A stretch of 64,000 nt of DNA from Diprion similis (Eukaryota > Arthropoda > Insecta > Hymenoptera > Diprionidae). The notes beneath the pieces are model-generated. The model had not been told where the DNA came from, did not search any database, and saw only the letters and a program-made list of their open reading frames with translations. Shown one piece after another: positions 1,337-54,829 of the stretch. Within the stretch, counting starts at the first letter, position 1; each line of letters begins with the position of its first letter. Where the stretch lies: the NCBI RefSeq assembly GCF_021155765.1, contig NC_060117.1:3362001-3426000 (forward strand), written 5' to 3'. The position numbers and the translations under genes were made by a program.

Positions 1337-4300
1337 ATGTTTTCGTCTTGGAAAATCTGTTGTAAGTAAAAAGAAATTAAACAATATTTCTATGAGGGAT
1401 ATTTAGGAGAAGACGCAGTTTTTTTTCAATCCTTCATAACTGTGCAAATCGTTTCAGTTCGCGGACCTATTGTTGTTGACGTGTAAACAAATGTTAATTT
1501 TTCGTTTATTTTCGTACTTAAATTTTGCACACAGAAATAAAAAACTTGTTCTGATTTAAGAAAATGTTTTTTAAACATCTTATTGTTCACTTAACGCTGG
1601 AATCAAACCTTCGTTCCAAGTATATAACGAATAATATTAGGGACAAATTAGAATCTAACGATTTGTAATCACATTTAATTCCGTCAAGTTATTTAATAAT
1701 TTTTATGTTTGTTAACTAAAGTCATTGCAAAAGTTGATTAAGCCATCATGAATTGAAAAACTTGTCGAAAAAACCAATCTCTGAACCGTAACGAGCACTA
1801 CAAGGCTGGAGAGACAAAGAACGAAGAAATGGGATAGCAAGTTTTCCAGAGTATGGTTTTTCAAATGGTATTTCATTTTATTCTTCCACCGATCATGTGA
1901 TTGATTACATGGCAATTTTTTTGCGATGAGATAATCGTCAGCGGGCCAAGACGCAGGATATGAAATTCAGGAATAATGATTATGACGATAAGATTGAAAT
2001 CGCGGTGTTGAGTATCATTATCGCCGGTATCTGTCGCCACCGATTATATGTATAGTGTATTAATTATGCTTCTCAGGGCATTATTGTAGAATTGTACACA
2101 AGGTTGTTGAATATTTTTATAGAAATGTATTTGTGGCTCTTGCATTGGTGTACCGCGTCGATGAGCTACCGTTCAATCACTATCTGAATAATTAAAAAAC
2201 GATCCACTTGAGAATATGCCGCTTATCTATACATATGCCTTGATTATCGATCAATACGAAGGCAGATTTATCACGTTTTAGAGAGCCAACTGCGAAGCAG
2301 GGTGGAGTCAGAATATATTATTAATTCATTTGTCTTCTTATCCACTTTCAAGTGCTTTCCGAATTTCTTCCCATCCTGTCCTGTTTCCTGACTTACTTCG
2401 AAAAACGAAGGCGATAAAAAAAGGAATGCACTTTCATATGCTCATCACGCTATGTCACGTACGAAACCCATGTTCACTTTTAACACCTCAACAAGGAATC
2501 CTCATCCCGGTTGCTCTTAAACGCAAAAGTGAAGTCGAACCCAGTCGCACGGGTAGTAATTGTGCACTGTGTTATTTTGTATCCATTAATTTTTTTTTCA
2601 ATCATATCGCAGGTGGGAGAGTGCGGCAACGATGGGTATTTGCGGTGATGGGATGTTTGGCGATAACAGTGTCATACGCGACGCGAATTTGCTTATCACT
2701 TGCCATTACGCAGATGGTGACAACCGCCGAATCGTCTTCAAACAGCACTACAGACGGAGAAACTTGTTCGGGGACTCTTTCAGCTTCGTCGAGTAGCGCT
2801 GGCAGCGAAACGTACGACTGGGATGAATACACTCAGGTAAAATAACGTCCGATGCTTGGGCTATTTTTTTTTTTCAAAATTCTGTCCACCATGTATCGGA
2901 TACGCCAGAATGAGTTCTTTAAATTAGACACCGCATTGAAGTTCAGTAGTACGAAAAACCTTGAAAGACCTTGAATTTTCGGAAGAATCCATTCACTTTT
3001 GCGAACTCTGTTCTACCACGTCGAATCCGCAATTTTTAATCCGGGAATTCCAATATCGCATCGTGATCTGTCAGGATCTCAAATAACACCATGCTCATAG
3101 CAATACGCACGTTGTGCGTTAAGGACAAATCGCGCAGTTCTTGTTCACTCACATACAAGCTTCAACGATACCTTTCATGAGACTTGATTAACCTATTGAA
3201 CGAATCTGTCAATTGCAACCATCCATTCTCCATCATCATCAACCATCCATGAGAATCGTCTTCTGATATCACGTCAAATATCGAACTGCCCAAAAATAAG
3301 TTTGGATGAAATTATTAGGACGTGTTGTGTCAGAGAAGCAGCATTGCCATAGTTGATCAAGTATCAAGCGAACCGTCATTATGACACCTGTAAATCACGT
3401 TCCAGGGAATCATTCTATCGAGTTTCTACTGGGGTTACATAGTATCCCAAGTACCAGGAGGCGTTATGGCGGATAAATTCGGAGGAAAGTACACCCTGAG
3501 TGCATCAATCCTGTCATCGACGACATTTACCCTGCTGACACCATTGGTAGTGAATAAATTCGACTCGACGGGATTAATAGTGCTCAGAATCTTGATGGGA
3601 CTTGGTGAAGGAACGACATTCCCAGCGTTGAACGTGCTCATAGCGGAATGGGCGCCGCCGCATGAAAGGTCGAAGATCGGGACGATGGTGATGACGGGAA
3701 CACAGGTCGGATCGGTCGTGGGAAACGCTTTGTCCGGAATCTTGCTCGAATACTCGCCGATCGGGTGGCCGCTGGTCTTCTACTTCTTCGGTAGTCTCAG
3801 TGCCTTGTGGCTGGTGACCTGGATTCTCTTCTTCCACAGCAACCCGGACATCCATCCGTACATCAGTGAGACCGAGAAGAAGTACATCCAGGACAAGATA
3901 AGCGAGAACACGAGGAAGCACACTCAGCCAATCCCCTGGCGCCACATGGCGACCTCTTTCCCGCTCTGGGGTCTTCTCATCGGCAAGTTCGGACACGACT
4001 GGGGCTACTACACTATGGCAAACGATCTCCCAAAGTACATGAACAACGTCCTCAAGTTCTCCATAACCTCGAACGGCCTCCTCACCGCTCTACCCTACCT
4101 GGCGATGTGGATCCTGAGCAACATATCCTCAGTCCCTGCCGACTGGCTGATAAAAAGCGGTAAGATGACGACCACCCACGTCCGCAAGGTCTTCACTACC
4201 TTTGGCTCTGTCGGACCAGCGATCTTCCTCGTAGCAGCGTCCTACGGCGGATGCAACCGCGTCCTCGTCGTTATTCTCTTCATTATTGGCGTCGGTTCGA

Positions 4301-4647
4301 TGGGACCGTACTACCCTGGATTAATGGTTAACGGTGTCGACCTCAGTCCCAACTACTCGGGCACGTTGATGGCTTTCATGATCTCCACTGGCTCCCTCGC
4401 TGGAATAGTGACGCCCTACGTGGTCGGAGTGCTAACTCCTAATCAGACCGTGACTGAGTGGAGATTAGTGTTCTGGATCACCTTCGCTGTGTTCATGGTG
4501 ACGAATGTTGGCGTTTTGTTTTGGCAAAAGGGCGAGATTCAGTACTGGAACGACCTGGAAAGCCGGAAGAACGAACCCAAGGATGTTGAGAGCGAAGGAA
4601 CGGCCGTCAAGAACGTGGAAAACTTTAGTACTAAGGCTGTCACGTAG
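1337..4647 (+). CDS. SLC17-family MFS transporter T1 (3 coding exons)
   Basis: Predicted 12-TM solute carrier of 496 residues, related to sialin, VGLUT and insect 'putative inorganic phosphate cotransporters'. Exons: 1337-1361, 2613-2836, 3406-4647, joined in phases 1 and 0 with GT-AG borders. Exon 1 gives MFSSWKIC. Exon 2 gives TM1 (MGCLAITVSYATRICLSLAI, with the conserved Arg) and a Ser-rich loop ending in YDWDEYTQ. Exon 3 opens with GIILSSFYWGYIVSQVPGG (TM2) and carries LRILMGLGEG in TM4, WAPPHERSK after TM4, LPKYMNNVLKF in the second half, and WRLVFWITF near the end. Both TM4 residues homologous to VGLUT2 Arg184 and Glu191 are present, so transport competence is expected. The start was chosen because the same 25-nt exon precedes every array member. 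The substrate cannot be told from sequence; organic anions or phosphate are the family precedents. Confidence 0.9.
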
Positions 4648-7381: not shown

Positions 7382-9733
7382 ATGTTCTCATCGTGGAAAC
7401 TTTGTTGTAAGTTTTTATTTATCTTTCTAATGTGGCGAAATTCGAAACGACTGTAATTTTTTTTAGTTAGTTATTAATATACTAGTAAAGAGAAATTTTC
7501 CGGATCGGATTCTATCGAGTTTAGCGTGAGAACCACGTGCATTATAACTGACTTCCACGTGTATGTCTGGATCATCTTTAGAAAAATTGGTAATTCTTAC
7601 AACCGTAGCTTCAGGACCTTGACGTTCTTCAAGGAGAATAGAATACATCTTCATTTGATATTCAAATTTTATATTGATCATTGTTCCGTAGTCAGCAGCG
7701 ATGAAATTCCACAGCAGGTGGATAGTTGACTCGGTTCTCATCCTAAAGTCGGATTTGATTCTTTGGAAAGATTATACTTATGGAAAACTGGACCTTCGTG
7801 AATAAGCGAATAATAATGAAAATTCTTGCCTAACTTTTCAAAATCCGCAAAATTGGTCTGAAAAGGTTGTTCTTTAGACATGAAACAGAGAGTTCATTGA
7901 TTTGGTTGAGTTTCATGGAAAAACTTAGTTTATGTTGGCCAGCTTTTACCACCAAAAACTCCACAAGTTGTCGACCTTGAATATATAAATTTGAATCTAT
8001 AAAACACAAAGTATTGCTTCGCTTTCAGACAAATAACTATAGAAGTTGAAAGATACTATTTCCGAAAGTTATTCTAATTTGAATTTCAAGGTTCACGAGT
8101 ACCGCAGCGATGGGTGTTCGCGATCATGGGATGTCTGGCACTTGCGAACTCGTTCTGTATGCGCATTAGCCTGAGCATAGGAATCACTGAGATGGCAAAA
8201 CCGGCCGCAAAGTCCAACATTACAAGCCGAGACGAAACGTGCCCGGCACTAAGCTCAAGTTCCTCGACTTCTAGTCTAAGCAGTAACACCTACGACTGGG
8301 ATGAATACACGCAGGTGAGGAACTCTTGATGCGGTTGACGATTAACGAGAGGTCGCGATTGAGGAGAGCTCATGATGATCAGAATCATACCACAACCTCA
8401 CCTCACGTGATTCCTGTGCACGATGTCAAAAGTATAAAATGTACGTTTGGAATTCGAACCAAAGTTTAAAAATTGAATATCATTTCAGGGTATCATCCTT
8501 TCAAGTTTCTTCTGGGGTAGCACCCTCACTCCAATACCGGGAGGTATACTGGCCGATAAGTTTGGCGGAAAGTACGTCTTGGGTATCGGCATTTTGTCCC
8601 AGGCGATATTCACAATGCTTACACCATTGGTGGTCGAAGCGTTCGACGCAACGGGGCTGATAGTTCTCCGAATTCTGATAGGTTTTGGCGCAGGAACGAC
8701 ATTCCCAGCACTGTTCGCACTCACAGCCCAATGGGCGCCGCCGGAAGAGAGGTCCAAGATCAGCACGGTTGTGACGTCAGGAATGCAGGCTGGAACGTTG
8801 CTGGGAACATCGATCTCCGGAGTCCTGATTCAAAATTCCTCCATGGGGTGGCCAGTGATCTTCTACTTCTTCGGCACCCTCGGTGTGGTTTGGTTCCTGG
8901 CCTGGATTCTGCTCTGCTCCAACCACCCTGACTCGCATCCGTTCATATCCGACCAGGAGAAGAAGTACCTGCACGACGCTATGGTCGAGCACACACAGAA
9001 AGAAACTGGGCCGACGCCGTGGCGGCAGATCCTGACCTCAGTACCAATGTGGGCTTTAATTGTAGTCAACATCAGCGAGGGTTTCGGGTTCAACATGATA
9101 TCAACGGACCTTCCGAAGTACATGAGCAGCGTCCTCAAGTTCTCGATACAGGCGAACGGCGTTCTGTCGGCTCTTCCCATGCTCGCGATGTGGCTCAGCG
9201 CCCTCGTCGCGTCCTGGTTTGCCGACTGGCTGATAGCTGCGGGCAAGATGTCAAGGACGAGGTTGGGCAAAGTATTTACAACCGTTGGTATAGTCGGACC
9301 AGCGGTTTTCCTCGTCACCGCGTCCTACGCCGGGTGCGATCGCACCCTCGTCGTCACCCTGTTCACCGCCTCAGTAGGTATGATGGGAATCGCGTTCCCC
9401 GGTGCGGGGGTGAACACCTTGGATCTGAGTCCCAACTACTCTGGTTCTCTGACAGCTATAACGAAGTTCGCTTCGGCTCTCGCCGGCATTGCAGCACCCT
9501 ACGTGGTCGGCGTAATCACCCCGAATCAGACGCTTGAAGAGTGGAGAATTGTATTTTGGATCACGTGTATCCTACTTTTGGTGTCAAATTCAATATACGT
9601 TATCTGGATGGACGGTGAAGTCCAGTATTGGAATGACCCTAACTTCGGAAACCGTAAAATAATGAATTTTGAGAATGAGAAACAAGTCGCTAAAGACCAA
9701 CCGTCGTCCAAGCAACGGTTCCGATATTTATAA
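7382..9733 (+). CDS. SLC17-family MFS transporter T2 (3 coding exons)
   Basis: Predicted 497-residue 12-TM carrier. Exons: 7382-7406 (MFSSWKLC), 8091-8314, 8489-9733; introns are 684 and 174 bp. Exon 2 encodes CSRVPQRWVFAIMGCLAL, the TM1 Arg in FCMRISL, and a Ser-rich luminal loop with an N-glycosylation motif (SNIT). Exon 3 starts GIILSSFFWGSTLTPIPGG, so the usual GYVVTQ of TM2 is altered. TM4 reads LRILIGFGAG: the Arg is kept, but the Glu normally found in GEG is Ala. WAPPEERSK and LPKYMSSVLKF are normal. The C-terminus has the usual YWNDPNF motif followed by a short polar tail. The gene body is the closest relative of pseudogene T3, whose second intron is almost identical. The missing Glu suggests altered coupling or substrate, which is an inference. 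Confidence 0.9.
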
Positions 9734-15250: not shown

Positions 15251-16710
15251 TAGTAGAAATAGGGCTTATAATATCTAGGCGTTAAAATCTTCTTTACATA
15301 CGAATTGAATATGAAAACTAACAATAAAGAAAAACAAACATTTTCTTTGGCGGAAATTTAGTAAAAACACAATCCGTACCAGAACAGAAAATCGTTTCAA
15401 AGCTTTAGTGCCGACTGGCGGTCACATGATTGAAATTACCTAACAAGCATTTAGGCAGATTAAAAACTATATGACGTGACAGAAACGTTGATGTGAAAAA
15501 GGGCTTTCACTGAACAAGTGTGAGCATATAGCCAACTTATTTTAATTTGAATTTCAAGGTTCACGAGTACCCCAGCGATGGGTGTTCGCGGTCATGGGAT
15601 GTCTGGGACTTACGAACGCGTTCTGTATGCGCATTATCCTTAACATAGGAATCACTGAGATGGCAAAACCAGTCGACACATCCAATATTACGAGTCGAGA
15701 CGACACGTGCCCGGCAGTGAGCTCAAGTTCCTCGACTTCTAGTCCAAGCAGTGGCACCTACGACTGGGACGAATACAAGCAGGTGAGGAACTCTTGATGG
15801 GGGTGACGATTAACGAGGGGTCGCGATTGAGGAGAGCTCATGATGATCAGAATCATACCACAACCTCACCTCACGTGATTCCTGTGCACGATGTACAAAG
15901 TATTAAATGTACGTTTGTATTTTAAACAGGAGTTTAAAAATTGAATATCATTTCAGGGTATCATCCTTTCAAGTTTCTTCTGGGGTTACGTCCTCAGCCA
16001 AATACCGGGAGCTATACTGGCTAACAAGTTCGGCGGAAAGTACGTCTTGGGTATTGGCATCTTGTCCACGGCGATATTCACCATGCTCACACCATTGGTG
16101 GTCGAAACGTTCGGCGCGACGGGTCTAATAGTCGGCTCTTCCCATGCTTGCGATGTGGCTCAGCGCCCTCGCCGCATCCTGGCTTGCCGACTGGATGATA
16201 GTCGCGGGCAAGATGTCAAGGACGAGGTTACGCAAGGTATTCGAGACCATTGGTACGGTTGGAGCGGCGGTTCTCTTCGTCACCGCATCCTACGCCGGGT
16301 GCGACCGCATCCTCGTCGTCACCTTCTTCACTGTCGGAATGGGCCTGACGGGCATCTCGTCTCCCGGCTCGGGGGTAAACGCTCTTGATCTGAGTCCCAA
16401 CTTCTGTGGGTCTCTGACAGCCATTGCTAAGCTAGCCGGGTCTCTCGCCGGCGTCGTGGCGCCCTACGTGGTCGGCGTAATCACCCCAAATCAAACGCTT
16501 CCAGAATGGAGAATCGTATTCTGGATCATGTTTGTCGTTCTATTCGTGTCAAATATGATATTTGTACTGTGGATGGATGGAGAAGTCCAATACTGGAATG
16601 ACCCGAACTTCAGGAACCGTAAACTGACGGATGTTAACAGTGAAAAACGTATCGATGGAGACCAATCATCCATCAGGCGATCGGAATCATTACCTGGAGC
16701 ATATTTATGA
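14778..16710 (+). pseudogene. SLC17-family transporter pseudogene T3
   Basis: Exons 1 (14778-14802, MFSSWKIC) and 2 (15559-15782) look normal, with correct splice borders and phases. Exon 3 begins at 15957 with GIILSSFFWGYVLSQIPG and stays in frame to TGLIV near 16133. There it jumps directly to the sequence of TM8. Compared with T2, about 503 bp are missing (equivalent to 8665-9167), which is not a multiple of three. The normal downstream frame (16144-16710) is still open to the usual stop, but the ribosome would enter another frame and stop at 16388. Other odd changes are PGAILANKFGG for PGGILADKFGG and DEYKQ for DEYTQ. The lost part covers TM4-TM7, so even a frame-corrected product could not be a full carrier. 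Confidence 0.88.
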
Positions 16711-18760: not shown

Positions 18761-21700
18761 CTTATCAATCCTCTATACTTCCGTGAATGAATACAGCTAA
18801 AGACTGGATTTGTATTTTCTTCAAAGTCCATTTTCTTGTTCACAGTGTTGTGATTTCACCACAATTCACCTGATCTTCTAGCTTGTGTGAAAAACTAATT
18901 GGTGACCTAGTAACGGATTTTTCTGCCCCTTAAACCTAACGCCGAATAATATAAAATATGTGTCGTCACGACTTTCCCCCTCTCCGTTGTCCGTTCCGTA
19001 TTTACAGCTAAGCGACGACGAAATGTCGTCACTTATCGAAGATTTAGGCGAACCGGCCACAGTGCCGGACAAGTATCATTTAAGGTGCTTATAAAGAAGC
19101 ATTGTACACCTCGAAAACGCGGGGAAGCAAAACTCCTATACCGCTTAAGCGATCAGAGTGAAACTTCGGCAATTGATGCCTTATTTTGGCAAGAAGTGGA
19201 GCGTCTTTTTACTTTTTCAATATTTGGAAAAAATTTTTATAGATTGGTAACCACCCACAGAAATTGGCCAAATTTTCACAGTCACACGGAATGAATCGAA
19301 CCATCCGGTATGATGCCACTCGGCGGTGATGAAACACACATTTTAGGCCCAGTCCCATGAGATTTGATGGTGAAATGACGAAATGGCAGCTGATCTAGTT
19401 TTCGATTACGAAGTACACCGAAATTTCATTTTGACGACATTTGTTAGCAACCTTTCATGCATGTCGGTAATTTTTTACCGACCTTACACGCATACATTAC
19501 CGGCATGCGCGTAATGTCGGTAACAAATCCCGCCAAAATGAGATTTCGGCACTGGGGCAGCCTTACGAAAAAATTATAAAAATCGAGAAACACTTATCAT
19601 GATATAAAATAACAGTTTGCAATCGTCTCCCCAACCCCGACAACAAATCAGTATTCTGGAAATTAGTTTTACTGATTTTTACGCTGGACAGTTTATACCA
19701 ACATCAAAGTAGTGAAAATCATTGAGTGATGAGATTTCTCCGGATTCTTTCCAGGTACTCGAATACCGCAGAGATGGATACTTGCAGTGATGGGATGTCT
19801 CGCTGTTTCCAACGCCTACTCGATGCGAATCTGTCTGAACATAGCCATCACGGAAATGGTGCTAACGGCTGAGGCATCGAATAGCACAAGTTCCGACGGT
19901 ACGTGTCCAGTATCTGAGTCCACATCCTCGAGTTCGAGTAGCAAAGGCACTTACGATTGGGATGAATATACGCAGGTGAGTTTGACCCCGTTTTGTCATT
20001 GATGAGGTTCAGGTTTGACGATCGCTGCTGATGGAAGAGCGATCATCGTTATCGGACCACGCGTCAAGTACTACTGGCGTCTACTTCAAACCCAACACAG
20101 GCGCTTAAAGTAGGTTCTATTTCAATTCAATTTCTGACCTTACCCTTTGAAGCTGAAAACGTCCGAAATTTTGCGATTTACTAAGTTTAGACTGAAAATA
20201 GGGTCCGTTTAGAACCTATTTTAACCCTCCGGAGGTAGGGTTAAACCTGCTTATTTGAAACTATCTTCTGACGCTAAAAATTCTATCCTGTTGATAAAGT
20301 TCCATCGATTCGGGTTGATTATAATTGGAATACAAAAAATAAGATAAAATCGTATGGAATTGGTTGACACATGCGTTTAATCGTATTTTCTGTATATTCA
20401 ATCAGTTAAAGGGTTTTTGTACTCGCAGGAACGTTGATTAAATACAGTTGAAATGCGATACTTATTTTTCAAATCTTCTTGAAACTTATCAAGATTATGT
20501 CGAAGTAGCACTTGGATCATTCATTCCGAACACTTGAATGTAGCTGTAATAATATATCTACAGAAAAGGAGTTACAGGTACAATGCAGATTGAATAGCAT
20601 CAAAATAAGTTCAATCGTCTACTGAGAGCGTCAAAGGAGGGTTTGGTACTTTAATTTTTAGGACTCGGGCAGTTTCAGCGTTTTAATACTTACTGAATAC
20701 TAAAAACACTGACAACCCATGACTACTTTTCAACGAAGCTTGTACATGCAATTTATCAGAGCTTTGAAGACATGTTTTTAACTAGAATTATACGACCTGT
20801 CGACTCCTGGAATCACTTTTCAGGGTATCATCCTGTCGAGTTTCTACTGGGGCTACGTAGTGACCCAAATACCTGGAGGAATACTGGCGGACAAATTTGG
20901 AGGGAAGTACACCCTCGGTATCGGCATTCTATCCACGGCGATATTCACAATGCTTACACCATTAGTGGTCGAAGCGTTCGACGCAACGGGGTTGATAGTT
21001 CTCCGAATTCTGATGGGTTTCTGTGAAGGATCGACTTTCCCTGCTGTGAACGTGCTCGTAGCCCAATGGGCACCACCAGAAGAGAGGTCGAAAATCGGGA
21101 CGGTGGTGATGGCAGGAATACAGGTTGGTACGGTGCTGGGAACATCCTTGTCCGGAGTCCTGATCCACAATTCCTCGATGGGCTGGCCGGTGGTCTTCTA
21201 CGTCTTCGGAGCCTTCGGCGTGGTCTGGTTCCTGGCCTGGATTCTACTCTGCTCCAGCTACCCGGACTCGCACCCGTTCATATCCGATCAGGAGAAGAAG
21301 TACCTTCACGACACGATGGTCGAGCACACGCAGAAAGAGACGGGACGGACGCCATGGTGGCAGATCCTGACCTCGGCGCCGATGTGGGCTTTGATGATCG
21401 GTAAGATCGGCGAGAATTTCGGCTTGCAAACGATGGTAACTGACCTTCCGAAGTACATGAGCAGCGTCCTCAAGTTCTCGATACAGACGAACGGCTTCCT
21501 GTCGGCTCTTCCTCTTCTCGCGATGTGGCTCAGCGGCATCGCCTCGTCCTGGTTAGCTGACTGGTTGATAGTGACGGACAGGATCTCGAGGACGAACCTG
21601 CGCAAGGTCTTCGCGACCATCGCCTCCGTTGGACCAGCGGTTTTCCTTGTCGCCGCGTCCTACGCCGGCTGCGATCGCATCCTCGTTGTGACCCTTTTCA

Positions 21701-22074
21701 CCATCGGCATGGGCCTGATGGGCCTTATCTTCCCAAGCACCATGGTTAACGCTCTCGACCTTAGTCCCAATTACTCGGGGGCGCTGATGGCCATGACGAC
21801 GACGATTGTGGGCTTTGCTGGTATCGTCGCGCCCTACCTTGTCGGCGTTTTAACGCCTAATCAGACTCTTCAGGAGTGGAGGATCGTCTTCTGGATCACC
21901 TTCGCGGTCTACTTGGTCACGATCATGGTCTACGCCATCTGGGCGGACGGTGAAGTTCAGTACTGGAATGACCCCGACTTCCGGTCTCAAAGGCTGCAGG
22001 AATCCGATAATGAGAAACAAGGACGTGGGTATCCGTCGACACCCAAGCACCCAGATCAATTGCCATCCGTTTGA
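18333..22074 (+). CDS. SLC17-family MFS transporter T4 (3 coding exons)
   Basis: Predicted 498-residue 12-TM carrier. Exons: 18333-18357 (MFSSWKIC), 19755-19975, 20824-22074; introns are 1397 and 848 bp. TM1 has Arg33 in SMRICLNIAI. The TM1-TM2 loop is Ser-rich with a SNST glycosylation motif and ends YDWDEYTQ. Exon 3 starts GIILSSFYWGYVVTQIPGG. TM4 keeps both key residues (Arg143 and Glu150 in LRILMGFCEG). WAPPEERSK, LPKYMSSVLKF, NALDLSPNYSG and WRIVFWITF follow, and the tail contains YWNDPDF. The CG-rich third positions of exon 3 contrast with the AT-rich introns, typical of a constrained gene. The first intron contains an interspersed repeat (19083-19560). A candidate AATAAA lies about 220 bp past the stop. 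Confidence 0.92.
19083..19560 (+). repeat. Interspersed repeat with palindromic core, copy 1
   Basis: Starts at aaggtgcttataaag. It is closely similar to 48664-49152 over about 330 bp, then enters a palindromic part (about 19398-19550) bounded by inverted arms containing ATTACGAAG/CATTTTG and CAAAATGAGAT. The core between the arms is in the opposite orientation relative to copy 2. It lies within T4 intron 1 and has no coding potential, so it is probably a MITE or composite of MITEs. Confidence 0.7.
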
Positions 22075-23225: not shown

Positions 23226-23640
23226 TGTAGTTCGGTGTCTCTCTCTGATTTGGTTGAGACCCATGTATGTTGTAGAACATTGAAAACTAAGAGACACGTA
23301 TTTTTTTTATCTGCGGAAAATCGGTTTTAAGGGGTGCTAATGACCGCCAAAAATGGGCACTCAAGGGGGTGATTTCTTGACGCGCTTCATGTATTTGAAT
23401 GAAACTAACACTGAAACGTTTTTTAACGAATAGAAAAACTTCAGTGTTAGTTTCATTCAAATCCATCACGCGCATCAAGAAATGACCTCGTTGGGTGCCC
23501 ACCTTTGGGGGCCATTTTCAACCCTCTAAACCGTTTTTCCACAGATAAAAAAAAAGTACATATCTCTTAGTTTTCAATGTTCTACAAAATACATGAGTCT
23601 CAATGCAATCAGAGGGGGACACCAAACTGATGTAGTTCGC
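23226..23640. repeat. Long hairpin (foldback) element
   Basis: Two arms of about 190-200 nt are reverse complements of each other, separated by a loop of about 24 nt near 23417-23440. The inner arm is nearly perfect (GAATGAAACTAACACTGAA against its complement). The outer arms share blocks such as AGAACATTGAAAACTAAGAGA and GTGTCYCYCTCTGATT. Non-coding. An RNA copy would fold into a near-complete hairpin. Confidence 0.8.
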
Positions 23641-23909: not shown

Positions 23910-26275
23910 TTACGAATAGTACAATTCTGTGCTCGAATTTTTATCAACGTCGACTTTTGCCCATTGAATACCTCCGGCGGTTTTCAGGTGTTTGTAGATC
24001 TTCTCAGATTCTTCTTCCGGGACCTTGTTTTTCTTGCACCTGGAGAAAGATTTCAGATATCACTAACACTTATCAGACAAAATATGAAGCGTGTGTCTCA
24101 TTATCAGAAGTTGAGATAGAAGTCGGAGTAACCAACCACAAAATGACGACTCGGGGATCTACGTAGTATCTCTTGGTGTTCTTTGAGTCCCACTTCATTT
24201 TCGTCTGTGATCCATCGCGATTACGCCTGGAAATCAACCATCAGCTCGCTCTTTCTTTTTTTCAGAGGGTAATTAACCTGGGAGGAAATACTCACTTCGG
24301 CGGAGTCTTGTCGTTATTATTTGGCATAGCGGTCATAATTTCCACCCCATCACCCACCTCTTTTTTCTTGTGGCTTCCATCAGCTTTTTGATGGTTTAAA
24401 TATTTAGTTACTTCACACAACGCTTTTTTATACAGTACTAATGCGTTTCCCTTGTTTAAATTCTTGGTTGCCTTCTCGAGCTCTTCCTGCATCTTTAGCG
24501 ACGCGTTGTACGTTCTGAAGACCTTTATAGTGAGATCCGGGAATATTTCTTTCAAACGATCGTTCACTTTCTTCGAAGTCATCCTAGGAAAGAGATCTTC
24601 CGATTCACCGTTTTCTTTCAATTCTTGCAAAATCTGGAACACCTTTTCTTCCACTGGATGTTCTTTATTGTATGTAATGCCGGACTTACCTATGAATCAA
24701 AAATTAATTAACCATAACGATTGAAGAACTGAACAGTGGTGATACTAGTCACGTAATATATGCCATTGCCAGCAACATATCTTACCTATAAAATCAAAAA
24801 ACACGAAAAACTTTCCCTCTCTGTTGCTGAGAGTAATGTGGCTTTTTTTTAACGTGCAAACACCTGTTGAGTCTTCCTGATTGCTGGATTCCTCAGTACC
24901 AGCCCTAAATGAAAATTTGTCAAGTATGTACAAAATGACACCTCTCTGTTGTTCATCTAAAACACTGCTATCCAAATCGCTCCGATACTGTTGCCGAACT
25001 TTCTCGATATTCTTCGAAAGTTCTACTGCGCAGCCAAATTTTTTTCGACCTTCGACAGACGGATGCAACCTTATGTAATTCCCATCAAATTTCCCGGTTA
25101 CATTATTTCTCCACTTCGCCAGGTATCTCGTCGTCGGCTGATTAATGATCTTGAACCCTTTCTCGTTGAAATTATTCGCCTGATCGCATTCGGATGAACA
25201 ATTTATGGTGACGTCCTCGGGCTTCACCTGCAACGTCAGAAGAAAATAGAGCAGATTGGACCAAACTGTTACCTTTCGCGAAGATAGAATTCTACAGCTC
25301 TCACCCGCTTCATTATCTTTCCAATGTTTTCATTGTTTTTCGATCGAATTCGGAGGCAACATTGAGGTTCCTTGATTTTCCAGTTCCAAAGCTGCTGTCT
25401 CTCTCCGTCGATGGTGCAGTACCCGAACTTCGCCTCATCTTCCTTAGATATTGACTTCTTCTCGTCTACTTTTTCTCGCAAGTGATAACGTATTGGTCCA
25501 AAACAACACTTGGACAAATCAGTTATTCTTTCCTTCTCCGATTCTGTCATCGTATTTTGCCAGTCCTTGAGGAAATTTTTGTCAAAAATTTCCCGCGTTT
25601 CCCTATTTATAACCTTTAACTTATCCAACCTTTTTGCATACAATGTGGCCATCTCTTCAGTCTCCGGTGCCAACTTCATCCTCTCATTGTCGTAATAGAA
25701 ATGAACTCCATCGGGTAAGAGCTCATAATCTGGCGGGAAGTATGGGCCATAATATTCTACGGAAGTCTTCCACAATGGCTCACCTTTCCCTGCTTTCTTT
25801 TGCCTAAAAAACAATAATCTCGATATTAATAGTGCTAATCGTGATGACTTGCAGATTTTCTATTTCAAGATACCATTTTCAATATCACAGCAAGTAAGTG
25901 ATTTATTAGAAAGTAAGTGACTTATTGGAAGACGTCCAAACTGAAATTCTAGCTTACCCTTTACCCACTTCCGGCTTCTTTTCTGTATCATCGTCATTAT
26001 ACGTGGTGTCTGAATCTTCTTCCCTATCATAATCGCTCGTGTCGGATGAATCTTCTTCGCTATCGTCATCACTCGCGATCTCTCGATCTTCTCCAACTGC
26101 GTTGCTTGGTTCTTCAACCCCTTCATCAATATTCTCAAAACGTCAAGTTTCGACTTTAGAATACAGTTTTAACCAGAGGTGTTGGCAGTTTTTCAAAAAT
26201 TATATTCTATAAAATGTTGACAGTCGATGACAGAGATGTTTTAAAAGTTTGGAAATTTCGTACGTTTCTCTTAAA

Positions 26276-26313
<38 letters not shown>

Positions 26314-26769
26314 CTGGCGTTATTTGCAATACATTATTCATTTCATTTACATGAAAGTGGCCGATCCATTCAATCAACGTGACTCTGTATCGTACGGTGC
26401 CAGAACAATATAGCCAAACTCTTTGGCCAGACTCCAATGGCCACGTTCACCACATACTCCAGCTATGACTCAAACACGATACATGAATCAACTGTCATGC
26501 GTGTGCATACAAATGCGTACAAAACCCAATGATGACAATTGCAACATATGAAGATAATCTCTGATAATTCAGGAGCCATTCAATCGATTTCACTCAAATT
26601 TTCTCAAAACGGTCCCACTGACTAAAACTTTCGGTAGTGAAGATTTCATTCAGAAATATCGAATCGTCTTTAACGTGTGAGAGAAGAACGTGTTTTACGT
26701 AGCAAAGAAAAATAAAATATGCAAAACAAAATCTACCTGATTTGATGCGGATGGGCGGGTGTCGCTCAT
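23910..26769 (-). CDS. Divergent type IB DNA topoisomerase (topoisomerase I-like), 7 exons
   Basis: Minus-strand gene with 587 codons before the stop. Exons in coding order: 26769-26737, 26133-25958, 25803-25305, 25227-24786, 24689-24296, 24226-24137, 24039-23910; every junction is GT-AG and all phases agree. Residues 1-69 are short and acidic (runs of Asp, Glu and Ser). From residue 71 the core matches eukaryotic Top1: YYGPYFPPDYELLPDGVHFY, KNFLKDWQ, LSKC, then DVTINCS. All five catalytic residues are present: Arg344 (FSFRAG), Lys385 (FIGKSGITY), Arg442 (KVFRTYNAS), His483 (LNHQK) and Tyr536 (YYVDPR). They correspond to human Arg488, Lys532, Arg590, His632 and Tyr723. The His-to-Tyr spacing is 53 residues against 91 in human, so the coiled-coil linker is cut short. 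It nicks and relaxes DNA through a 3'-phosphotyrosine if active. The divergence suggests a paralogue rather than the housekeeping gene. Exon 1 is the least certain part. Confidence 0.85.
26277..26310. repeat. (CA)17 microsatellite
   Basis: Uninterrupted CA dinucleotide run in the first intron of the topoisomerase-like gene. Confidence 0.95.
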
Positions 26770-28226
26770 GGTTGCTGACGTTGCTGGTATGCAGCTGAGT
26801 GTTACAGGAATGAAATTTCCGTAATGACTGATAACACTTGTGTGAGTTTAACGTGGCTCGCGGCATGCGTCATTAGCGGTCAGGCCGCTAACAACTCTAG
26901 ATAATTGTTTCCCATAAAATATTTCATGCGAGCATTTCTTTCAGCGAGCAAAAAATTCTTACGGATTAATGTGTCGTGTGAGAAATTATGATTCGGTACA
27001 GACTTGAATCGAAAGTGGCGCAAAACATTCAGAAAGCTTATTATTTGAGATTCGAAAATTACCACGATTTATCGAATCGTTTTCCGATTAATCGATTAAT
27101 TGAACTTTTCGATTATTCATTTTTCCAATATCCCATAAATCGTTTAACGACTGTTTTGATTCATAAATGTATTGTGTAGAATCTGCTGACTTTACATTAT
27201 CTAATTGATCGAACTTCCGTTTTTATAATTACATTCCTTCAAATCCATTGTTGATAGCAGAAATATCTCGAGATGCAGTAAAACAAACTGCGAAAAAATA
27301 TTATCCGTACAAATCAATAATAATAATAATAATTTTTTGCAGATAGACTATCAGGTCGTTCAATGAATATAAACATGAGTATAAATATCATCGTTGCATC
27401 ATGCTTCCTAGCGAGTAAATTTTACTCGGCTATCACTCACTGCTCCGTTACCGACCAATGAATTAGCCATTATCATTATTTACAGTTGCAGATTATGACC
27501 AGTCGAGATTATGCCATTTAGATGAAAAACCATGTGTTGGACAAATTGTATTCGAGCACATAAATTGTAATTCTTTTCTCGCACATTATTTGCACATGTG
27601 ATGTACAAAAAGTATATATTTGCATACACGTGACTATTAAATATACCGAAAACAAAAATTTGCATACAATTTCAATGCGCGGCGATATGTAAAATTTATT
27701 TAAATCATGTATGAGGCATGCATACAGGATGTTTCCAAGTAAACGCCAGAGTATTTTGGCTTGCCTATCACTCAGGGCAAAAGTATCGGTATTACAGACC
27801 TACCGAGTTATCGATCGTTAGTGCTTTTAAAGTGCTCACGAGTGAGCTGGAACCGCCTGCATTGCCAAGTTTTATGTCGAGTATCGTATAATTTGCTGAT
27901 ATGAAGATATGATATAATCGTAGAGTTTAACGCGTCCCATGGAGCGATAAGATTCTATAGGAGTAGCAGCTTATTTATCGTCTTTTGCAAATCTCACAGC
28001 ATAGTTATCAGTTGTCAACTAGCCCTATTTTATCTTGGAATACGTTCCGCAACATTTTACCATGTGAGATTTGTGTTCCCGCTAAAACAGCTTTCTACTT
28101 CTCTCCGCCAGATCTGTTACCATCAGATTATATTTCCTCATCTTTTGCTTTTACCAGAGTGTTAGTTGCGCAAAACATAACTTAGAAAGGTGCATGGAAC
28201 CACTGGCACATCAAATAAAAATAGCC
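26770..28226. other. 5' flank of the topoisomerase-like gene and spacer
   Basis: The region just upstream of the minus-strand ATG (26770-26880) may be 5' UTR or promoter; no clear TATA box. The rest is AT-rich with no supportable gene. Confidence 0.4.
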
Positions 28227-28876
28227 CACTATTTTTGATTCGCTTCACAGTTTTTTTTCATACGATTCTTCAGTCTCAAAAAAACAGTCTTCAATTTTTT
28301 CAGATTTTTATCTCAAGTCGTAAATTTTCTACGATTATTTAAACCCATTTAAAAATTAGCATTTTTTTAAATCTCAAAAATCCTACTTTCCATTCCGTTC
28401 ATTTTGACACCTATCCTGCGAAGAGGCGATTTTTTCTTCTAATTTTTTCCAGCACTTCAAACATTTCAAACAAGCAAAACACCATGTTTCAATGTTCCAC
28501 ACATTTTTTGAAAGTTACACAAAATTTTGTTCGACAGAATACAACTGTAAAAATTCTGTACACAATTTTTTATAATGTTTTGAAAACCAACGAAACAGTG
28601 AAACCGGGAGTTTTGTTTGTTCACAATGTTTCAAGTGCCAGAAAAAATTAGAAGAAAAAAACGCCTCATCGCAGGATGGGTATCAAAATAAAACGGAATA
28701 AAAAGCAAGTTTTTTGAGAACTTTTTACTATTCCAAAAAAATGTCTCAATTTCTAGATGGGTTTGAATAATCATAAAAAATTCACGATCCGAGATAAAAA
28801 TCTGACAATTTTTACGAGTGCTTCTTTGAGACGGATGAACGGTATAAAAAAACTGTGAAGCGAATCAAATATAGTG
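28227..28876. repeat. 650-bp foldback / MITE with terminal inverted repeats
   Basis: The ends read CACTATTTTTGATTCGCTTC on the left and, on the opposite strand, CACTATATTTGATTCGCTTC on the right. The arms continue inward imperfectly for about 250-300 bp (for example CCTGCGAAGAGGCGATTTTT against its complement near 28655-28680). There is no open frame. A target-site duplication is not evident. Confidence 0.75.
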
Positions 28877-38200: not shown

Positions 38201-39534
38201 ATGATCGTGGTTACGACCTTGTGCCAATGAACTAGCGATGTGTGGACGAACTATATTGCAAATAAATTACGTTTCAGGGTATCATCCTGTCGAGTTTCTT
38301 CTGGGGCTACATAATCACCCAAATACCTGGTGGAATACTGGCAGACAAGTTTGGAGGGAAGTACACTCTGGGTATCGGGATCCTATCGACGGCAATTTTC
38401 ACCATGTTGACACCGGTGGTGGTTGAAGCCTTCGACGCGACTGGGCTGATAGTCCTTCGAGTATTAATGGGTTTGGGAGAAGGAACGACCTTTCCAGCAG
38501 CGAACTCTCTCGTAGCCCAATGGGCACCGCCGGAAGAAAGGTCGAAGATCAGCACGGTAGTGATGTCAGGTATGCAGGTTGGAACGGTACTAGGAACATC
38601 GCTCTCCGGAGTCCTGATTCACAACTCCTCCATGGGCTGGCCTGTGGTCTTCTACTTCTTCGGGGCTTTTGGCGTCCTGTGGTTCCTGGTCTGGGTTGTA
38701 CTCTGCTACAGCTACCCGGACACTCACCCGTTCATAAGTGACCGCGAGAAGAAGTTCCTCCGTGAAAGGATGAGCCAGCACACCCACAAAGAAACGGCAC
38801 CAACGCCGTGGCGCCGGATCCTGACCTCGGCACCCTTATGGGCGTTGATGATCGGCAAGGTCGGGGAGAATTTTGGCTTCCAAACAATGGTAACCGACCT
38901 TCCAAAGTACATGAGTAGCGTCCTCAAGTTCTCGATACAGACGAACGGCTTCCTGTCCGCTCTTCCTCTGGTCGCAATGTGGGTCGGTGGAATCGTCTCG
39001 TCCTGGCTCGCCGACTGGATGATAAAGGAGGACAAGATTTCAAGGACAAACCTACGCAAGGTCTGTGCGACCATCGCCGCCGTTGGACCGGCGGCTTTCC
39101 TCGTCGGCGCGTCCTACGCCGGGTGTGATCGCACCCTCGTCGTCACCCTGTTCACCCTTGGGATGGGGCTGATGGGATTCATCTACCCGAGCACCATGGT
39201 CAATGGTCTTGACCTCAGTCCCAACTACTCGGGTTCCCTGACCGCCATGACGACAACGATTGTCGCCATTGCCGGTATTGCCGCACCCTACGCTGTCGGC
39301 GTTCTCACTCCAAATCAGACGCTGAGCGAGTGGAGAATCGTATTCTGGATCACGTTCGCCATTTATTTGATATCCGTTCTGATCTACGATTTCTGGGCTG
39401 ATGGGGAGGTTCAGGACTGGAACGACCCGGGACTCAAGCTGAAGGGCGATAAAAAGGAGAACACTGAAAAGCCGAAACAGGACTCTGGCACACAGCATTC
39501 AGAACAAAACGTCCGTAAGGTACATCCGGTTTAG
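32591..39534 (+). CDS. SLC17-family MFS transporter T5 (3 coding exons)
   Basis: Predicted 502-residue 12-TM carrier. Exons: 37135-37361 and 38278-39534, plus a 25-nt first exon best placed at 32591-32615 (MLLTLKNY, donor gtaagt, phase 1), which leaves a 4519-bp first intron. That exon is assigned by its likeness to the other members and is less certain than the rest. Exon 2 gives CAHVPQRWVFAVMGC, the TM1 Arg in SMRICLNLAI, and a loop ending YDWDEYTQ. Exon 3 begins GIILSSFFWGYIITQIPGG. TM4 has both key residues (LRVLMGLGEG). WAPPEERSK, LPKYMSSVLKF, NGLDLSPNYSG and WRIVFWITF follow, then a long Lys/Glu/Gln-rich tail. Closest in sequence to T4. An AATAAA lies 70 bp after the stop. Confidence 0.88.
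35137..35159. repeat. (ATC)n microsatellite
   Basis: Short trinucleotide run in T5 intron 1. Confidence 0.9.
35258..35286. repeat. Poly-A run of 29 nt
   Basis: Homopolymer in T5 intron 1; similar T runs are at 35536-35561 and near 36020-36040. It could mark retrotransposon insertion, but no adjoining element was recognised. Confidence 0.8.
37564..38045. repeat. Compound direct and inverted repeat in T5 intron 2
   Basis: A block of about 37 nt (taaattcgaa, ttaattaggtgacttga) appears twice in direct orientation at 37564-37601 and 37921-37957. Between and beyond them, 37735-37830 is reverse-complementary to 37965-38045 (tgactgtgtctgtgaagatg against its complement). A perfect 25-nt palindrome sits at 37655-37679. 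It is probably a decayed, partly duplicated mobile element. Confidence 0.65.
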
Positions 39535-53204: not shown

Positions 53205-54640
53205 CACGCCCTTCGATGTTAAGGCATTTGATGTTAGATTTAGTTTTTGAAATTCTGTTCTTTAGACTTTGTGTTGTTTATACTATGTATTGTTTTCCAC
53301 AGTCCAAGCAGTTGATGTTATATACTGCATTAGATTTATCTAATATCGGTGTAATTGTTTTCAGAGGTGTGTATTATTATTGGGAGTTGTTAGAAATTTT
53401 GTACGTTAGGTTAATGCCAATGTCTGTGAGGCACTCTTGAATTTTTGTAGAAGGGTTTCAATGTTGTCTTTGTGTACACATGTATTATGTTATCTACATA
53501 CCTGTAATAAAAGTGTAGTTTATACGGCAAGTTATCAATTATTTTGTTTTCTTACCATATAAGCTATAACCGGGTTAATGGAAGAACCCATCGCTACACC
53601 GAATATTTGTTTGTATATTATATGCTTGTAAGTGACAAAACAGGAATTCGGACATAGGGTTATTGCATCTATGAATTCTTTCTTAATTATGCTGGTGTGG
53701 TTTTATTATAGACCAGTTTTTGTTCGCTATGGCAATATCTAATTATGTTGGTATGTTTGTGGAAAGTGAGGTTACGTCCGGTGAAAGTGATACCATGTCA
53801 TTGGATATGTTTTGTACAGTAGTTTCTTTAGCGAAAGTCCAACTGCCTTTTACGTGGTGTTCTGTTTGTTCTGTGATCTTTGTTAGTATGCCTGATAGAA
53901 ACTTAAAAAGTTTGTATGTAGGTGCCTTGAAATTGGAGACGATGGGTCTAAGTGGTATCCAAATTTTATGAACCCTTGGTGAAGAATAAATTTTCGGAGG
54001 TGATGAATTATGAGTTTTCAGGTTCTTGGTTGTGGTATCAGTTATGTGTTTCTTTTATAGCCACATAGTGACTTGGTCATTGGCTTGATTTTCCATTATT
54101 TTAATTCGATCTTTAGTTAACAGATTACGTGTGTGACAGTCTGACAGATGAATTAGACATTTATTGTCGTACTCATCGGTATTTCATACAACCGTTACGT
54201 TACCTTTGTCTGCCTCCGTTACTGTAAAATTATGCTGCTGTTTCAAATATTCCTTTGCCTCGTTGAATCGCGTTAATTCTGTGTTGGTTTGCTTGTCGGT
54301 GTCAGCTGCTTTATGATTATCAATTAGTCTCGCATCGTTGACTCTAACTTTATCTGTGTCTGTGATATTGTTATCTATCAAAAAAGTCTTAATACTGATG
54401 ATAATTTCATCGCCAGGTAAGTTGTTGTTATCATATAGTCGTCTGAGCTTAAGGCCTGAAGATGAGCAGTATGCCACATGTTGAGGAATCTTGATGTGAG
54501 AAAAGCTTACGACCGAATTCTTGTCGAAGCCTCTTTCTTTGTTAAGTTGTATTTGTTGGCCACTTCTTGAGCAATTCAGTTTCTTATTATTGAAGTTTTG
54601 AGTGTTATAACACAAATTCTCAAACTGATGTATATCGATG
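53205..54640 (-). mobile_element. Decayed Penelope-like retroelement (RT + GIY-YIG remnants)
   Basis: Read on the minus strand from high to low coordinates, the fragments appear in Penelope order. First comes the open frame 54615-54184 with an RT N-terminal region (IKIPQHVAYCSSSGLKLRRL, YDNNNLPGDEIIISIK, TEADKGNVTVV). Next are VHKIWIPLRPIVSNFKAPTY near 53960, DVTSLSTNIPT near 53760, then FGVAMGSSINPVIAYM near 53575. RYVDNI near 53500 is the RT catalytic motif, with the second Asp replaced by Asn. A GIY-YIG-type remnant, VYNINCLDCGKQYIV, lies near 53300. Stops and frameshifts separate the blocks, and the part between the RT active site and the nuclease is too short. The element is dead. Its 5' side abuts the satellite array at about 54830. 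Confidence 0.8.
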
Positions 54641-54829
54641 TTATATTATTGGAATTCTTACTCTTCATGATTGTATTAGAAAAAATTTGTGATCTAGTGA
54701 TCTACAGTTTGTGTCAGGTGGGTGACGTGTTTGTGGCTGTTTTTTATCTTCGACGATGATGATGTTTTTTGTAATCTACGTAAGGCTTGTTCTAGACAGG
54801 ACACTGATTTACGTGATGTGTGTGAGTTG

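Follow-up and report, generated by a model that had tools for sequence, protein, structure and literature searches.

Vertebrates have been described as exceptional among eukaryotes because they possess both a nuclear and a mitochondrial type IB topoisomerase, and the mitochondrial enzyme, TOP1MT, originated by a duplication within vertebrates (PMC10081982). For insects, a study of Spodoptera Top1 drew on a single Top1 record for each of nine insects (PMC3579855), and TOP1 of aphelinid wasps is reported to be under positive selection (PMC13116730), so that in some insects Top1 does evolve unusually. No insect Top1 paralogue appeared among the matches listed in a search of titles and abstract beginnings in the open-licence literature, and the part of PMC2680839 covered here holds nothing on Top1 copies in Daphnia; the gene described below may have been noted elsewhere or may be present as an unremarked annotation. 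Human Top1 from which the linker has been removed changes from processive to distributive relaxation, religates faster and resists camptothecin; a swapped, more flexible linker also brings faster religation and camptothecin resistance, and full function is reported to require a minimum linker length (PMC3699648).

Here we analyse a divergent Top1 copy in the sawfly Diprion similis, within a 64,000-nucleotide stretch of genomic DNA (the window). The copy shares with the canonical nuclear Top1 of its host and of human the cap, the catalytic core, the catalytic pentad, the C-terminal tyrosine and the WCKK motif, and with the host's gene also the positions and phases of the core introns. By descent and core domains we class it as a member of the TOP1 family with a predicted variant architecture, in that it lacks the long charged N-terminal domain of the canonical four-domain TOP1 and, as judged from sequence, its long coiled-coil linker. 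Like vertebrate TOP1MT, it is an additional Top1 paralogue that evolves faster and whose N-terminus is short, but this N-terminus does not resemble a targeting sequence. It also resembles the linker-deleted and linker-swapped human constructs, in which the linker is removed or altered and the pentad is intact; those constructs are engineered, whereas the copy is a natural gene whose linker appears to have been replaced in addition to many changes in the core.

Gene structure and domain content

The Top1 copy occupies positions 23910-26769 on the minus strand (Table 1). A preliminary description of this DNA had joined seven exons with matching phases into 587 codons, and independent re-splicing of this predicted gene model reproduced the 587 amino acids followed by TAA, in a single frame with no internal stop and with GT-AG boundaries at 6/6 introns. 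The least certain exon is exon 1, which has no clear similarity to the first exon of the canonical gene; it was the sole candidate in a scan of 26134-28500 for an ATG with a phase-0 donor matching at least 7/9 consensus bases. Two repeats were observed within the gene. The tandem duplication of 36 nt in the acidic region of exon 2 spans 26002-26073, with 78% identity between its units, and a (CA)n microsatellite at about 26278-26310 in intron 1 could serve as a population marker.

Table 1. Exons of the predicted Top1 copy, with positions numbered along the window
Feature	Position	Strand	Content
Exon 1	26737..26769	-	MSDTRPSASNQ; start codon context CAACCATGA; phase 0 at end
Exon 2	25958..26133	-	Acidic N-terminal region, containing a 36-nt tandem duplication
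Exon 3	25305..25803	-	Cap module (Topoisom_I_N, PF02919); start coincides with the start of canonical exon 9 in alignment column and phase
Exon 4	24786..25227	-	Remainder of the cap, then the beginning of the catalytic core; Arg344 (human R488); introns on both sides match the canonical gene
Exon 5	24296..24689	-	Catalytic core; Lys385, Arg442, His483 (human K532, R590, H632); first part of linker
Exon 6	24137..24226	-	Second part of linker and Tyr536 (human Y723)
Exon 7	23910..24039	-	C-terminal domain, 9-residue insertion near the C-terminus, stop codon; WCKK motif split with exon 6

The spliced protein matches Pfam families far beyond chance. The catalytic core family PF01028 (Topoisom_I) was matched at 9.1e-55 (185.9 bits; cut-off 23.7) and the cap or DNA-binding family PF02919 at 8.2e-39 (133.8 bits; cut-off 25). 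The C-terminal family PF14370 (Topo_C_assoc) scored 24.0 bits (3.5e-5), below its cut-off of 25.1; the tyrosine, the DPR and the WCKK of this domain align with human. All of the 15 distinct PDB sequences that match the protein are named DNA topoisomerase I or similar, and the best of them are presumably human proteins. An AlphaFold prediction for the exon 5 product alone was uninformative, with a mean pLDDT of 45.5.

The canonical Top1 of the genome and the origin of the copy

Searching the genome (269 Mb, 60 contigs) for the core and cap domains located two Top1 loci, namely the copy and one on another contig (C4), and an exon-wise search with PF14370 matched the C4 locus only. A protein search with the copy itself gave no additional locus, its eight matches comprising five at the copy and three on C4; the genome search ran exon by exon with the best candidates scored, so that a still more divergent copy could escape it. 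The second, conserved Top1 that the preliminary description had suggested looking for in the host genome is therefore present, and since it exists, the copy cannot be read as the species' only, fast-evolving Top1. In our hand-built predicted model the canonical gene has 13 exons and encodes 1007 amino acids. Identity to human is 72% for its core and 36% for the copy; over 447 aligned core columns, identity is 75% between canonical and human, 43% between the copy and canonical, and 40% between the copy and human. The copy appears to evolve much faster than the canonical gene.

The introns connect the two genes. Those after exons 2, 3, 4 and 6 of the copy coincide with canonical introns 8, 9, 10 and 12 in both alignment column and phase (2, 0, 1 and 2) in two alignments, the match after exon 2 being exact to about a residue because conservation is low there and HMMER inserts a gap of one residue relative to human. 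Canonical intron 11 is matched in order and phase (2) by the linker intron, which lies four columns away from it within an unalignable region, and the first intron is in phase 0 in both genes. Because the introns coincide with those of the canonical gene, duplication at the DNA level is indicated, rather than a retrocopy or a transfer, and the copy is very probably a paralogue of the host's nuclear Top1 that arose by duplication of a segment carrying its introns. A horizontal or viral origin was considered and rejected, since the introns match those of the host's own Top1. A scan of collections of genome and viral contigs with a three-sequence Top1 alignment found no relatives.

The duplication is old. 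At fourfold sites in codons sharing their first two bases, the copy and the canonical gene agree at 17/65, which is about the random level, and synonymous change is therefore saturated. At the 110 sites where human and canonical differ, the copy has the canonical state at 27, the human state at 14 and neither at 69 (p = 0.06). The comparison was extended with a presumed Drosophila Top1 sequence. At 50 sites where canonical and the presumed Drosophila sequence agree against human, the copy follows the insects at 18, human at 3 and neither at 29; it has private states of the canonical gene no more often (4/33) than those of the presumed Drosophila sequence (5/51). As a lead that depends on this presumed sequence, the duplication may postdate the separation of insects from vertebrates and have occurred near or before the point at which this order and flies diverged.

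Selection versus decay

The preliminary description had taken the intact frame as a sign of selection and not of decay, and neutral simulations bear this out. The canonical core was evolved to the observed protein identity over 447 aligned codons in 1000 runs with substitutions only and no indels; these runs acquired a mean of 17.1 stops and at least 6, against 0 in the copy. A simulation of the whole core (200 runs, distance 0.4) gave a mean of 22.0 stops and a minimum of 11. The copy keeps 163/337 residues at sites where human and canonical agree and has the canonical residue at 27/110 sites where they differ, a contrast reached in 0/1000 neutral runs; when either state is counted at the differing sites (41/110), the contrast is weaker (p = 0.047). 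Substitutions in the copy are also mild, with a mean BLOSUM62 score of -0.21 against a simulated mean of -0.68 and maximum of -0.35 (0/1000 runs as mild). Identity to the canonical gene is 68% at second, 58% at first and 39% at third codon positions, and pairwise dN/dS is 0.23 (LWL85) or 0.31 (ML), values that average over both lineages at a dS near 2.

A decaying duplicate whose frame has stayed open by luck would account for the strong divergence, with identity to human at half the canonical value. We consider such a pseudogene extremely improbable in view of 587 codons free of stops, splice sites intact at all six introns, a frame that remains intact across 16 length differences relative to the canonical core, and signals of selection that were reached in none of the 1000 neutral runs. 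Long-term neutrality is rejected, and long-term constraint on the copy by purifying selection is almost certain.

Linker and N-terminal region

The linker had been described as about 38 residues shorter than in human Top1, and the distances agree: His and Tyr are 53 positions apart in the copy, 91 in human (38 more) and 90 in the canonical protein of the same genome. Both arms are shortened to a similar extent, by 17 and 20 residues, as the canonical protein has 48 residues before and 42 after the linker intron, counted from His to Tyr, and the copy 31 and 22. Composition differs as well. The helix breakers proline, glycine and asparagine make up 12/52 of the residues between His and Tyr in the copy versus 6/89 in the canonical protein, and hydrophobic residues 10/52 versus 31/89. 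With this composition an antiparallel coiled coil is unlikely in the copy, and by its sequence the linker appears to have exchanged the coiled coil for a Gly/Pro/Asn-rich stretch, a change beyond mere shortening.

The N-terminal region proved as short and acidic as first described. It comprises 69 residues with 26 acidic and 6 basic ones (net charge -20), compared with 448 residues and a net charge of -1 in the canonical protein.

Active site and camptothecin-related positions

The pentad is complete, as had been claimed: R344, K385, R442, H483 and Y536 align with human R488, K532, R590, H632 and Y723 (5/5). Near the active site the copy also keeps R362, R364, N352, E356, K587, N574 and G503 (human numbering). 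The block around R590 reads IKVFRTYNAS and differs by one residue from human and canonical; of the 15 residues that lie no more than 7 positions from R590, 11 are unchanged. Other positions have changed: D533, beside the catalytic lysine, is Ser and S534 is Gly; T718N, L721R and N722Y lie beside the tyrosine; and K425, K436 and K493, which we take to be DNA contacts in human Top1, are Asn, Glu and Glu. Conservation is lowest in the C-terminal part, where exons 6 and 7 are 36% and 32% identical to the canonical protein over 14 and 34 aligned residues. The differing residue in the R590 block is Ile in place of Ala586 of AKVFRT, an alanine that was invariant in a chordate study (PMC10081982). Positions 715-728 were almost 100% conserved among the animals of the same study (PMC10081982), and in human Top1 Asp or Lys at 722 reduces activity about 300-fold, Tyr not being among the changes shown (PMC9481636).

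The altered residues beside the tyrosine and the catalytic lysine, the loss of three lysines and the weak match to the C-terminal domain would suit a Top1-derived DNA-binding or scaffold protein, maintained by selection, in which strand cleavage has been lost or nearly lost. We regard this as unlikely but deserving of weight: at a background retention of 163/337, keeping all five catalytic residues has a probability of 0.026, the pentad survived in 1.1% of the 1000 neutral runs, and the R590 block is almost unchanged. That the copy is active as a type IB topoisomerase appears quite probable, and activity is the main doubt, because residues beside the tyrosine that are almost fully conserved in animals have changed.

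Fourteen positions at which human TOP1 camptothecin-resistance mutants have been assayed were compared; relaxation activity was close to wild type in 10/14 of those mutants, and 12/14 were resistant to camptothecin in vitro (PMC9481636). The copy differs from human at 12/14 of these positions and the canonical protein at 2/14; two of the differences in the copy are gaps, and one falls within the linker, where alignment fails. Where human and canonical agree, 10/12 of these positions are changed in the copy, against 233/400 sites overall (P = 0.063), and the changes may therefore be plain divergence; adaptation to camptothecin was considered and is not concluded. The Top1 of camptothecin-producing plants offers a parallel (PMC3579855), in that positions 530 and 722 are changed there and in the copy, with L530I shared and 722 being Tyr in the copy; position 530 varies among ordinary insect Top1s too (PMC3579855). 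In those plants resistance resides in the plant's Top1, whereas in the insect the second copy alone is changed, with no sign of drug exposure.

Location and expression

A mitochondrial role had been among the early suggestions, and it fits poorly with the N-terminus, whose strongly acidic composition is unlike a targeting signal. An insect mitochondrial Top1 would parallel TOP1MT, another paralogue that evolves faster and has a shortened N-terminus (PMC10081982). Given the 26 acidic and 6 basic residues among the first 69 and a scan of 26134-28500 that offered no alternative first exon, we consider it highly improbable, and we infer that the copy is nuclear.

Expression was approached through CpG content. 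In insects, a low CpG ratio usually marks broadly expressed, methylated genes. The observed/expected ratio over whole loci was 1.05 and 1.15 for the copy and 0.69-0.87 for the canonical gene (3 loci), compared with 0.73-1.15 at 21 housekeeping loci (TOP2, TOP3, DNA polymerase B and RNA polymerase families) and 1.03-1.36 at 12 odorant-receptor loci; several loci come from one gene or overlap, and control loci L021 and L034 and some Top1 loci were excluded. The copy is nearer to the odorant-receptor mean than to the housekeeping mean, with overlapping ranges, and CpG richness is a property of the window as a whole (1.24). Restricted expression, for instance in the germline, is a guess that these ratios suggest and go no further than suggesting. 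The odorant-receptor family 7tm_6 has 103 exon-level matches in the genome, as befits an insect.

Genomic neighbourhood

The copy sits between two members of a tandem transporter array and in the opposite orientation to them. The array runs on the plus strand (3394-4647, 8477-9733, 20782-22074 and 38266-39534, with further ORFs to 52970), and the four array ORFs checked by Pfam all match MFS_1. A further transporter copy at 15945-16710 is split over two overlapping frames, and the central stretch of its neighbours is absent by eye; it looks like a truncated, decaying array member. Just downstream of the Top1 copy, a foldback element of about 400 bases (23229-23628) has inverted arms of 115 and 80 nt that are 83% and 86% complementary, and is probably MITE-like. 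On the minus strand, 54184-54645 holds an open frame of 153 amino acids with no Pfam match; its C-terminal TEADKGNVTVV is, we presume, reminiscent of Penelope-like retroelements.

Proposed mechanism and significance

The best explanation of these data, which we put at somewhat better than an even chance, is an old, selected Top1 paralogue that is likely a working type IB enzyme with an altered linker and altered kinetics; we are clearly less certain of catalysis than of paralogy and constraint. Such an enzyme would clamp duplex DNA, and Tyr536 would attack one strand, aided by the Arg-Lys-Arg-His group; the free strand would then rotate before the nick is resealed. The long, charged tail found at the N-terminus of the canonical enzyme is absent from it. 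The short Gly/Pro/Asn-rich linker, together with the changed residues that hold camptothecin, would make its action distributive, its resealing quick and its trapping by camptothecin poor. Such distributive, fast-religating and camptothecin-insensitive behaviour may be expected because human Top1 without its linker behaves in this way and the pentad is intact here.

A bolder version of this explanation is tentative, and we would call it possible while expecting it to be wrong in some part. On this view the copy is an ancient paralogue of the insect lineage that arose no later than the divergence of this order from flies and that the usual model insects have either lost or not been noticed to carry. 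It would have become specialised, perhaps for chromatin of the germline or of meiosis, as an enzyme that naturally has no linker, reseals fast and is insensitive to camptothecin, next to a normal Top1.

If true, a second, old and selected insect Top1 would show that Top1 has specialised independently in another lineage. A natural experiment on the linker would then also be at hand, namely a cellular Top1 without the arm that in the human enzyme controls processivity, religation and camptothecin trapping, in a genome that has retained a normal copy.
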